A stretch of DNA of 35,542 bases from Planctomycetota bacterium. GTDB lineage: Bacteria > Planctomycetota > Phycisphaerae > Sedimentisphaerales > Anaerohalosphaeraceae. Location of the stretch: assembly GCA_019456225.1 (NCBI GenBank), contig VRUI01000050.1:1-35542 (forward strand), read 5' to 3'. Under the pieces are notes generated by a model. It had not been told where the DNA came from. It did no database searches and saw only the letters and a program-made list of their open reading frames with translations. Position 1 is the stretch's first letter; each line of letters begins with the position of its first letter. Below are positions 32,294 through 35,542 of the stretch, piece after piece. A program made the position numbers and the translations under genes.

Positions 32294-33055
32294 TTACCAC
32301 CAATGATGTGGTCCCTGTATAATTCTCACTTGCATGTCCTCAAACTTTCTCCATTCAACGTGCCCGTCAACAAATCCGATGTTTCCACCCTTAGCCTTAT
32401 CTCTCCTTATATGGTTCGTTACGTCCGGGATGCCTAAACCCCAAAGTCCACCGTGTACCTCAACGGTGTTGCTGGTAACAGGGTTGGGGCCATCACTGAA
32501 TACGGAGTCTACTATGACTTCTGTCATTGATGGCTGTATACAGGTTACCGACCTGACCCATTTGTTAGCGTTTGTTCCTGAAAAAGTTTGTGTTTTCGGT
32601 GTTTCGCTGTCTAAGAGCCAGAAATAACCGGACACTGCAAACCTAGTGCAATTAAGGAGACCATTGTCTGATTCGCATTTAGGGTTGACATTCCCGCCGT
32701 TGCTGTAGTACCAGAAGATCGGGTTCTCGGCGCTTTTTTTATGTTTATTATCTGAGGGACAATAAAAGTTTTTTCTGACACAGCCGCCTTCTATTAGGTA
32801 TCCAGCAGTGTTGTGCCGTAAGTCCTGCAGCCAACCAGCCCGGTCGGAACGTGGAGTTTTGCTGTCGTTTTCAGAGGCGTAAGTATTAACGGCAATTGTA
32901 ATGGTCTTTAAGTTGGTTGAACAGACGACTCTTTTAGCTAACTCTTTTGCTTTACCGAGAGCTGGAATAAGTATGGCGAGTAAAAGTGCGATGATCGCAA
33001 TGACCACCAGTAATTCAATGAGCGTAAAGCCTTTAAATCTGAAAAGTTTTTTCAT
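32294..33055 (-). CDS. Type II secretion/pilin-like pseudopilin
   Basis: 253 aa from the ATG at 33055. Class III prepilin leader: MKKLFRFKG before [16 protein letters not shown], cleaved after Gly9, with the conserved Glu at mature position 5. The long N-terminal helix is followed by a globular domain ending [19 protein letters not shown], the H-x-DG-type ending common in planctomycete pseudopilins, which occur in large families per genome. It probably forms or caps a secretion pseudopilus. Transcribed from one of the two inverted promoter/leader cassettes, divergent from the phytase. Its partner platform could be pilMNO at the left of the window. Confidence 0.9.
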
Positions 33056-33076: not shown

Positions 33077-33237
33077 GTAAGCGTTCACGGGTATTTTGAT
33101 GGTATTGAGCAACGCACTCAATGCCAAAATGCCCATTCTTACTCAATGAATCGTAGCATACTCAAGGCGGCATGTCAATGTTTTTTTTAAGAAAAACTCC
33201 TAATTTGTCCGATAATAGCCACGGTAAATGACTTGAG
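33077..33237 (-). promoter_or_regulatory. Promoter and structured leader cassette for the pseudopilin gene
   Basis: On the minus strand: CTCAAGT (33237-33231), ATTATCGGACAAATT (33216-33202), TTGACA (33178-33173), a 17-bp spacer and TACGAT (33155-33150). The leader contains a two-tier stem: GGG.ATTTT pairs with AAAAT.CCC and encloses ATTGAG/CTCAAT with loop TGCGTTG. It is homologous to the plus-strand cassette at 33544-33731. The block ends about 21 nt before the start codon. Confidence 0.75.
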
Positions 33238-33543
33238 TGCAAAACTTGACTTCCAAAACAGAACAGAGCAAATTAAAAGGGTCGGACACCTTTTTTAATA
33301 GAATCGCCGTTTTTGCTGTAACAAACGTCGATTATCCGACTCTTTTAAAATATAACTTTTGATAATTAACGTATTACACTTGCTCTTTCACCTATCCAAG
33401 AAGCCTTATTATTATCGTCAGAAGCAAGAAATTTCAATAACTTATTAGAAAAAAAGAAAAACTGTCAATTTTCATCAAAGAAACCCTCTTATAAGGCTGT
33501 GCGGGAAAAGAATGATGGCCCTTGCCATAGGGACCGTTTCGTC
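33238..33543. other. Spacer between the divergent cassettes
   Basis: About 300 bp of AT-rich sequence with one palindromic repeat (33270-33292) and no gene. The flanks are the two inverted cassettes; nothing else is recognised. Confidence 0.55.
33270..33292 (-). repeat. GGGTCNGACCC-type palindromic repeat, copy 2
   Basis: On the minus strand AAGGTGTCCGACCCTTTT then AATTT, 21 of 23 positions equal to 30021-30043. It lies in the space between the two divergent promoter cassettes. Confidence 0.75.
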
Positions 33544-33731
33544 CTCAAGTTTGCCAACACGATTATTATCGGACAAATTCAGGGCTTTGCTTGAGACAGA
33601 TATTGACATACCACCTTGAATATGCTATAATTCATCTAAAGCATAGGGATTTGTATTTGATCGAGTCGAAAATGGGCATTTTGACATTGAGTGCGTTGTT
33701 CAATACGCTCAAAATTCCCGTCAACGGTTAC
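33544..33731 (+). promoter_or_regulatory. Promoter and structured leader cassette for the phytase gene
   Basis: CTCAAGT (33544-33550), ATTATCGGACAAATT (33565-33579), then a consensus promoter TTGACA (33603-33608), 17 bp, TATAAT (33626-33631), with start near 33638. The leader stem is GGG.ATTTT (33674-33682) with AAAAT.CCC (33711-33719), enclosing ATTGAG/TTCAAT (33686-33704). Relative to the minus copy, a G-C pair becomes G-U, keeping RNA pairing. About 34 nt replace 8 nt between promoter and stem. The ribosome-binding site AAGGGAG follows, 7 nt before the ATG. Confidence 0.8.
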
Positions 33732-33760: not shown

Positions 33761-35302
33761 ATGACTGACATGAACAAGAAAACAACTAAGTCGAACACGA
33801 AACAGCCGGGCGGGCGACAGTTGTCGCTGATAATCTGTTGCGCCCTTTGCGTTCTCAGCCTGCCCTCCGCCGCGCGGGCTGAGGTGCCGGTGATCACGCC
33901 CGACGTCCGGTACGCTAATCCAGATGATAGCGATCAAGATGACATGTGTGTCTGGGTGCACCCCACTGACAAGAGTCTCAGCACCATCGTGAGTTCGGAC
34001 AAGTACGCAAACAGGATATTCGTATATTCATTGACGGGGACATTGATCCAGTCGGTCGATGTGGGTACGCCGGGCAATATTGATATTCGATATGGGTTTT
34101 CTCTGAATGGGGAAACGGTTGACGTTGTAGGCGTTGTAGGCCGCGATGCGAAGAAAATACTTTTGTACAAGGTGAAAAGTGACCGAACGCTGGAACGAAT
34201 TGATGACGACGCCATATTCACCGACGACAATTACGGCATTGCCATGTACAAGAGCCCGACGAGTGGTAAGTACTATGCATTCAGTGTCAGTAAATCTGGA
34301 ACGATCAAACAGTTTGAGCTCACGGACGACGGATCGGGCAAGATCACGGGCACGAACGTGAGAACTATGAGTGTATCCAGCATCACCGAAGGCATGGTCT
34401 GTGATGACGAAACCGGAAAGTTGTATGTGGCTGAGGAACAAGTCGGCGTCTGGAAGTTTGGAGCGGAGCCCGATGCGGGGACGAACAGGCTCCAGATCGC
34501 CGCTGTCGGCAGTGATGGTTTCGTCTCCGATTGCGAAGGCATTACCCTCTATTACAGAGCCAATGGAGAGGGTTACATCATCGTATCCAGCCAGGGGAAC
34601 AGCACGTTCCGCATTCTGGATCGGAAAGCGCCCCATGCCTTTATCGGGGCTTTCGATATTTCCAATGCATCGAGCACCGATGGCATTGACGTCTGCAGCG
34701 TGAATCTGGGAAGTACGTACCCCCAAGGCGCCTTCCTCTGCCACTCCGGCGGGTCAAGCCAGTGGGGGACGCAGTGGGAGAAGATCGCGTCTCCACTTGG
34801 TTTGACTGTGGACACGGAATACTGGAACCCACGGGGCGATTTGTCCAACCCTCGGATCATAGCTGATCCTCTTGGTTATCAGTGGTTGACAGACGGTACA
34901 AAGACAGCTACTGTGACTGCAACTTTAGAAAACTTTGTTGATTTCGATCTCGGTGCTCCCTATACTTATACATGGTCGACTGATTTTGGTCCTCCTGATG
35001 CGACTTTTGGTACCCCTGTTCCGTCTAATACTACAGGTGCTGGAGAAGATTTGTCTACGGAGGTTACTTTTGATGCTCCTGGCGATTATGTTCTTCGGGT
35101 TGAAGTTACAATAGATACTGTGCTCTATTCTGATACTGTCACTGTCACTGTTTATGCTGACGGTTGTGTTGCAGCTAAGGCTGAGCTCACTTACAATGAA
35201 CTTATGGCTCGAGAAAAAGGCGATACGAACTATGACTGTAAAGTTAACTTAGTTGACTTTGCTGCTATGGCAGAATACTGGCTGACTGATAAATCACTCT
35301 AG
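33761..35302 (+). CDS. Secreted beta-propeller phytase with Ig-like and dockerin-like tail
   Basis: 513 aa. Signal peptide ending SAARA before EVPV. Residues about 40-355 are a beta-propeller phytase (PF02333): DDMCVWVHP, NRIFVYSL, GNIDIRYGF, TEGMVCDDETGKLYVAEEQVGVW and SDCEGITLYY. The family releases phosphate from phytate using calcium. A PKD/Ig-like domain (about 365-455) and a single dockerin-like calcium loop (GDTNYDCKVNLVDF) near the C-terminus follow, a tail common on planctomycete secreted proteins. Base composition changes near 34866: the propeller is G+C-richer than the tail, which suggests a domain fusion after transfer. It has a strong promoter cassette upstream and a strong terminator downstream. 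Confidence 0.9.
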   Translation: MTDMNKKTTKSNTKQPGGRQLSLIICCALCVLSLPSAARAEVPVITPDVRYANPDDSDQDDMCVWVHPTDKSLSTIVSSDKYANRIFVYSLTGTLIQSVDVGTPGNIDIRYGFSLNGETVDVVGVVGRDAKKILLYKVKSDRTLERIDDDAIFTDDNYGIAMYKSPTSGKYYAFSVSKSGTIKQFELTDDGSGKITGTNVRTMSVSSITEGMVCDDETGKLYVAEEQVGVWKFGAEPDAGTNRLQIAAVGSDGFVSDCEGITLYYRANGEGYIIVSSQGNSTFRILDRKAPHAFIGAFDISNASSTDGIDVCSVNLGSTYPQGAFLCHSGGSSQWGTQWEKIASPLGLTVDTEYWNPRGDLSNPRIIADPLGYQWLTDGTKTATVTATLENFVDFDLGAPYTYTWSTDFGPPDATFGTPVPSNTTGAGEDLSTEVTFDAPGDYVLRVEVTIDTVLYSDTVTVTVYADGCVAAKAELTYNELMAREKGDTNYDCKVNLVDFAAMAEYWLTDKSL

Positions 35303-35372: not shown

Positions 35373-35542
35373 GTGTGCCCGGCAGGGCACACTTACTTGG
35401 AGGTGAAAGTCCTCTATGGGCCCGACAACGGGAACCATTAGCCGGACGGCAAGGGTGTCGGTCGTGAGGCCGAATCTGAAGGAAGCCGCAGGCAAAACGC
35501 TGGCTCGACGAACAGGAATCGCATATGAGGCGGTCATGTCGG
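35373..35542 (+). mobile_element. Group II intron, 5' part (truncated by window end)
   Basis: Begins with GTGTGCCC, a bacterial group II intron 5' end (GUGYG), forming an 8-bp stem with GGGCACAC around GGCA. Domain I features in order: GGAGGTGAAAGTCCTC, CCGGACGGCAAGGGTGTCGG, GTGAGGCCGAATCTGAAGGA and CGACGAACAGGAATCGCATA then TGAGGC. The reverse transcriptase/maturase gene expected inside domain IV lies beyond the window. It starts about 10 nt behind the terminator stem of the phytase gene. Subclass not determined; insertion behind terminators is typical of group IIC, but this 5' end may be another class. Confidence 0.85.

Follow-up and report, generated by a model that had tools for sequence, protein, structure and literature searches.

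A probable IS66-derived promoter and leader cassette ahead of exported-protein genes in Sedimentisphaerales

Ends of an IS66-family insertion sequence (IS) have probably been exapted, repeatedly, as promoter and 5'-UTR modules for secretome genes across the order Sedimentisphaerales. The window analysed here is the whole 35,542-nucleotide contig C103, one of the 152 contigs in a 4.45-Mb draft genome that its relatives place in this order. Within it, positions 33077-33731 hold two inverted copies of one promoter-plus-hairpin cassette, ahead of divergent pseudopilin and phytase genes. New here are an IS66 origin traced with an intact parent, a covarying leader kept in solo copies, and a one-sided, secretome-biased retention of the IS end across the order. 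Intact IS, recent copies and old solo ends form a traceable series that appears to supply promoters and 5'-UTR RNA to one gene class, and the question of whether mobile promoters build regulons becomes directly testable.

Two inverted copies between a pseudopilin and a phytase gene

The same blocks follow one another in both arms of the window: CTCAAGT, ATTATCGGACAAATT, a TTGACA-17-TATAAT/TACGAT promoter, a two-tier hairpin and CCCGTgAACGgTTAC, where the similarity stops (Table 1). The initial annotation had named the heptamer, the 15-bp block, the promoters and the hairpins, and all were found where it placed them; the C.A and C.T(U) stem mismatch and the G-U closing pair are likewise present as described. 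The inverted arms match over 61 nt at 89% and 72 nt at 79%. The outer limits of the shared block fall exactly on the first and last positions of the region, and the start codons of the pseudopilin and phytase genes lie 21 and 29 nt beyond them. The distance from stem end to start codon, put earlier at 20-30 nt, is slightly larger when measured (33 and 41 nt). The gap between -10 element and hairpin is 42 nt in the phytase copy versus 15 nt in the pseudopilin copy, a difference of about 27 nt. A dockerin-like C-terminal tail on the phytase was read from the sequence and carries no Pfam score.

Table 1. Features of the two cassette arms and their downstream genes, in window positions.
Feature	Position	Strand	Remarks
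IS66-derived promoter/leader cassette, older-lineage copy, upstream of pseudopilin gene	33077..33237	-	Most similar to IS copies from elsewhere in the order (other genomes, 82%) and not to the phytase copy
IS66 terminal inverted repeat, GTAAGCGTTCACGGG read inward; outer edge of pseudopilin-side cassette	33077..33091	-	
Two-tier leader hairpin, pseudopilin side	33089..33134	-	
Outward sigma-70 promoter TTGACA-17-TACGAT, pseudopilin side (predicted)	33150..33178	-	10/12 matches, extended -10 TG
Conserved ATTATCGGACAAATT block, pseudopilin side, upstream of promoter	33202..33216	-	Part of IS end, between promoter and transposase start
Conserved CTCAAGT, pseudopilin side	33231..33237	-	
Pseudopilin gene, type IV pilin-like, downstream of cassette	32294..33055	-	N_methyl PF07963, weak DUF1559/SBP_bac_10
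IS66-derived promoter/leader cassette, young amplified subfamily, upstream of phytase gene	33544..33731	+	92-97% identity to copies elsewhere in the genome
Conserved CTCAAGT, phytase side	33544..33550	+	
Conserved ATTATCGGACAAATT block, phytase side	33565..33579	+	
Outward sigma-70 promoter TTGACA-17-TATAAT, phytase side (predicted)	33603..33631	+	12/12 matches, TG before -10
Two-tier leader hairpin, phytase side	33674..33719	+	
IS66 terminal inverted repeat CCCGTCAACGGTTAC; outer edge of phytase-side cassette	33717..33731	+	
Secreted beta-propeller phytase gene with signal peptide, downstream of cassette	33761..35302	+	PF02333

Judged by their closest relatives, the arms are independent insertions from two IS lineages and not two ends of one element. 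The nearest sequences to the pseudopilin arm are copies found in other genomes (82%); the phytase arm shares 92-97% identity with young copies of its own genome. The initial annotation had alternatively read the arms as terminal inverted repeats of one small element, and both outer edges are indeed IS66 inverted repeats, 655 bp apart in total span. A single non-autonomous element of that length is nevertheless highly improbable: both arms are the same end of the IS, whose genuine other end has a different sequence, their lineages differ, and no 8-bp target-site duplication (TSD) surrounds the pair (TTTCATTA versus GAGGAATA), the far ends of both arms being lost. A further repeat was observed. 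The sequence AAAAGGGTCGGACACCTTTTTTAA lies between the arms at 33270-33303, and a similar one, AAGGGGTCAGGAGCCTTTTTTAA, stands directly left of another cassette copy (L079); both are possibly REP/RAYT-type repeats. The start of a group II intron (RF02001, 72 bits) follows the phytase gene directly at 35458-35542 and runs off the contig end.

Parent element and distribution of copies

Its termini and neighbouring coding sequence identify the cassette as one end, the transposase-upstream one, of an IS66-family IS with a single ORF. An intact element in a relative (G048, L209 1249-2895) is 1,647 bp long and encodes a 479-aa TnpC with Pfam matches to PF03050 (1.2e-41), DUF6444 and zf-IS66. Its inverted repeats are of the GTAACCGTTCAC type (GTAACCGTTCACAGG... 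at one end, ...CCGTGAACGGTTAC at the other), and a perfect 8-bp target duplication, TCGTTTTC, flanks it on both sides. The cassette occupies the end upstream of the transposase gene, with its promoter directed outward. L209 has one transposase ORF and no accessory tnpA/tnpB; IS66 elements of this single-ORF type are known. The cassette family shares with them the PF03050 transposase with an IS66 zinc finger (in the parent), inverted repeats (TIRs) starting GTAA, and the 8-bp duplication, which is found in the parent and in sister MITEs. It differs in its perfect-consensus outward promoter and covarying hairpin at the transposase-upstream end, and in the predominance, within the window's genome, of solo ends before exported-protein genes. 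The intact IS points at a gene's 3' end, as a fresh insertion would be expected to do. By eye, a gene for a NusG/UpxY-like protein lies near it (L209 4243-4791, minus strand).

Only remnants of an IS66/PF03050 transposase gene, and no full one, are assembled in the window's own genome. TnpC or its remnants lie upstream of cassettes, on the opposite strand, in many genera of the order, and at L164 a full-length TnpC relative (43% identical) stands beside a cassette. When the window genome's copies are aligned, the gene-side edge is fixed at GGTTAC with unique sequence beyond it in every copy, and the left edges fall at differing positions between -366 and -17 with respect to the hairpin. The IS has a partner end that differs in sequence, GTAACCGTTCACAGGGCATAAATG; four copies reach left to it (GTAACCGTTCACAGGGCATAAATGTGG), with IS66 TnpC remnants on the opposite strand in between. 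Nearly every copy in this genome retains the promoter end, its 12/12 sigma-70 match directed outward, and lacks the remainder of the element. Among solo ends, about 14 are promoter-side (right) versus 1 from the other side (left). Only one copy has a near-TSD (7/8, L067), because the left ends are gone. The -35 element (L073) or the whole promoter (L078) has been lost in two copies, the latter still 222 nt ahead of a sulfatase gene. Gene duplication was ruled out as the source of the repeats, as similarity ends at the TIR. An integron attC site and an invertible promoter were also considered; against both, the copies are dispersed singly and their right edge is an IS66 TIR.

The genome and covariance-model searches proposed in the initial annotation both returned further copies: the 4.45-Mb genome has 7 occurrences of the 15-mer versus 0 of its reversed control, far more than chance would give, and 23 matches to the covariance model of the leader. 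The hairpin core occurs 22 times (control, 0), and the 159-nt cassette is found in about 22 places, many at 92-97% identity. Several of these copies are at the ends of contigs, where a 77-nt overlap is of the kind usual at assembly breaks; the genomes used are drafts, and copies inside one genome have common ancestry. The hairpin model matches 41 of 161 Sedimentisphaerales genomes, one of which (G066) has at least 9 copies that have diverged from one another and still have intact stems. Among 392 genomes drawn from across the phylum, the model matches only the window's own genome, and the element therefore looks restricted to the order. The initial annotation would have given up its cassette reading had there been no other copies, or copies with target duplications and no downstream genes; the intact IS of the relative is the one copy of that latter kind.

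A covarying leader hairpin

In an alignment of 81 hairpin copies (78 distinct), pairing is intact in 90.5% of the cells. Changes on both sides affect 51 cells, versus 19.9 ± 4.1 in shuffled and 11-21 in slid controls, although these controls leave some shared-ancestry effect. There are 72 G.U cells versus 19 A.C cells, and therefore the outward, gene-sense strand is the paired one. The same pattern holds in 36 diverged solo copies without detectable transposase, with 20 both-side changes versus 6.7 ± 2.4 (reached in 0 of 1000 shuffles) and 49 G.U versus 11 A.C cells. The covariation was not significant on the first 25, closely related sequences and became so once diverged copies were added. 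The leader thus has the conserved, covarying secondary structure by which structured cis-regulatory RNAs are recognised. Its folding energies are no more than moderately low, with z about -2. Conservation is lower (78%) for the alternative inner helix GCGT/ACGC. In some diverged copies the hairpin persists although no IS promoter can be recognised, and what is retained is therefore not in every case the promoter. No Rfam family matches the cassette at gathering score or E<1; the single match, to a human lncRNA model (E = 3.1), is far below threshold.

The hairpin may itself be a true cis-regulatory RNA or antitermination signal that coordinates exported-protein genes and was only spread by the IS, acting through a protein, an sRNA, RNA polymerase (RfaH/LoaP-like) or a ligand switch. 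We consider this rather unlikely, though several observations point to it. The loop TGYGTTR and the tail GTGAACGGTTAC remain conserved in diverged copies, compensatory changes preserve the structure in the 36 solo copies, some hairpins are retained with unrelated sequence upstream, and the downstream genes form a coherent class. Against it, the element is small, no terminator or RBS-sequestering alternative was seen in the two leaders examined, there is no candidate ligand or protein, exported genes are a broad class, and the tail could be conserved as the IS inverted repeat. To a similarly limited degree, we entertain the idea that the IS66 element spreads a structured leader RNA with a regulatory function, to which a protein or the transcription machinery binds, and so joins dozens of unrelated exported-enzyme genes in one regulon. 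If true, this would be a transposon-built secretome regulon maintained by RNA-level selection.

An antisense-type role, in which the outward hairpin RNA regulates the IS66 transposase and precedes host genes only incidentally, appears less probable still. In IS10, RNA-OUT combines an outward promoter with a hairpin RNA near the IS end, and the cassette likewise has an outward promoter, a stable hairpin at the transposase-upstream end, a structured gene-sense strand and a conserved loop; such a role would also account for an IS carrying a hairpin. Unlike RNA-OUT, the cassette RNA would run clear of the start of the transposase message and would become the 5' UTR of a host gene: its promoter lies between inverted repeat and tnpC and reads away, so that it overlaps only read-in transcripts. 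Nor does an antisense role explain the orientation bias described below, or the compensated stems before exported genes in solo copies without detectable tnpC. An RNA-OUT-like function in the parent IS may coexist with a leader function at host genes.

Association with exported-protein genes

In the window's genome, 21 of 22 cassette copies face the start of a same-strand gene. Exported-protein genes lie downstream of 20 of the 22, against a background of 31-38% (p about 1e-6) taken from 311 genes in 400 kb of this genome, which is rich in exported proteins, with a home-made signal-peptide heuristic in place of SignalP. The set comprises three sulfatases, one FGE-sulfatase-domain protein, GH2, three GH127 proteins, three CotH/LTD, three HZS_alpha-type and one PQQ-repeat protein, the phytase, the pseudopilin and others. 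The exceptions are a PLP-dependent, threonine-synthase-like enzyme (L077) and the copy that has lost its -35 (L073), which has no gene and also lacks the tip of the inverted repeat. One predicted promoter region thus precedes non-homologous genes of one genome, as is characteristic of a mobile promoter. The proposal in the initial annotation of a portable promoter and structured-leader cassette for secreted or surface proteins is borne out by the 22-23 genomic copies, their gene context and the RNA covariation; what it missed was the origin in an IS66 terminus. In relatives, 46 of 64 gene-facing copies precede exported-protein genes versus 15 of 56 in the background (p = 7e-7), the calls being made conservatively by that heuristic with an added Tat test. 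Of the 18 misses, several are probably exported proteins too (Tat, pectate lyase, pseudopilin), and 6 further copies have no facing gene start.

A sister family serves as a control. About 15 complete IS66-type MITEs of 71-474 bp (L088-L103, L116) in the window's genome have the TIR GTAACCGTTCAC, the same 12-bp inverted repeat as the cassette, and perfect 8-bp TSDs in about 10 copies. Duplications of 8 bp are the type that IS66 makes. These elements have the two TIRs and TSD without transposase that characterise a MITE; most cassette copies have one end only. The MITEs face 12 gene starts versus 13 gene ends, with no orientation bias, and exported-gene starts at 6 of 25 sides versus 20 of 22 for cassettes (p = 3e-6). 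A preference of IS66 for sites just upstream of the start codons of such genes, with no selection for the cassette, is accordingly quite improbable. It would fit the intergenic position of many insertions and the frequent occurrence of the MITEs, whose TIR is the same, at 10-30 nt from genes as well; for this last reason, start-codon distance was dropped as functional evidence. It does not fit the even orientation and background-like export rates of the MITEs, the retention of the promoter end alone, or the intact IS, which faces a gene 3' end. We infer that selection, and not insertion preference, underlies the orientation and exported-gene bias.

Exaptation of the IS end would proceed as follows. 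After insertion upstream of a gene, transcription would initiate inside the IS end; we infer from the promoter match that the cassette drives the downstream genes. Judged by the -10 position, the message would start about 8 nt before the hairpin in the short-gap form, run through the hairpin and the inverted repeat CCCGTGAACGGTTAC into the host gene, and be translated from that gene's own Shine-Dalgarno. At exported-protein genes, mostly with polysaccharide-degradation and sulfatase functions, the promoter/leader end would be kept, probably for strong expression of the exported enzymes, and the transposase and far end would erode. More tentatively, as the weaker step of this model, the 5'-proximal hairpin might mainly protect or standardise the mRNA start and leave the ribosome site free. 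Stabiliser hairpins such as the ompA leader sit a few nucleotides from the mRNA 5' end with the ribosome site open. The cassette hairpin resembles them in its distance from the predicted 5' end and its open ribosome site, but is delivered by a transposable element. If the model holds, a likely promoter and leader can be named for many sulfatase, GH127, GH2 and CotH genes of uncultured polysaccharide degraders, and the cassette could serve as an expression cassette for Planctomycetota.

Precedents exist for ISs with outward-reading promoters, for mobile promoters and for MITEs that bear a promoter (PMC9208149, PMC3281130, PMC4596501). As in Paracoccus, where an IS-borne promoter reads into the adjacent gene (PMC3281130), the predicted cassette promoter points into its neighbour; unlike such cases, it is followed by a conserved structured leader, and solo ends are found again and again, throughout the order, ahead of one functional class. 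Promoter propagation by mobile promoters (Matus-Garcia 2012, as cited in PMC9208149) is, in the account given there, similar in placing near-identical promoters before non-homologous genes of one genome; relative to that account, the cassette adds a traced origin, one IS66 end whose parent element survives intact, and a conserved RNA structure. The BrickBuilt MITE of Porphyromonas gingivalis, described as intergenic and with no such link to a gene class (PMC4596501), is likewise a short repeat, dispersed in the genome, that combines IS-like ends with promoter activity (predicted in the cassette); most cassette copies are one-ended.

A second repeated leader (L290-L325) was observed in genomes of the order. 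It contains a short upstream ORF encoding M-F-[FC]-[NK]-R-[VL]-N-G-K-C-Q, which has a Shine-Dalgarno of its own, varies at the C-terminus and looks like a conserved leader peptide; a literature search of partial coverage found no paper on it. The ORF sits just before, or is fused in frame to, mostly signal-peptide genes, with occurrences in the window's genome at C66:12729, C141:5338, C39:1329, C110:23122, C130:13222 and C23:33486. Its DNA pattern is present in 80 of 161 genomes of the order, versus very few matches for the reversed control.
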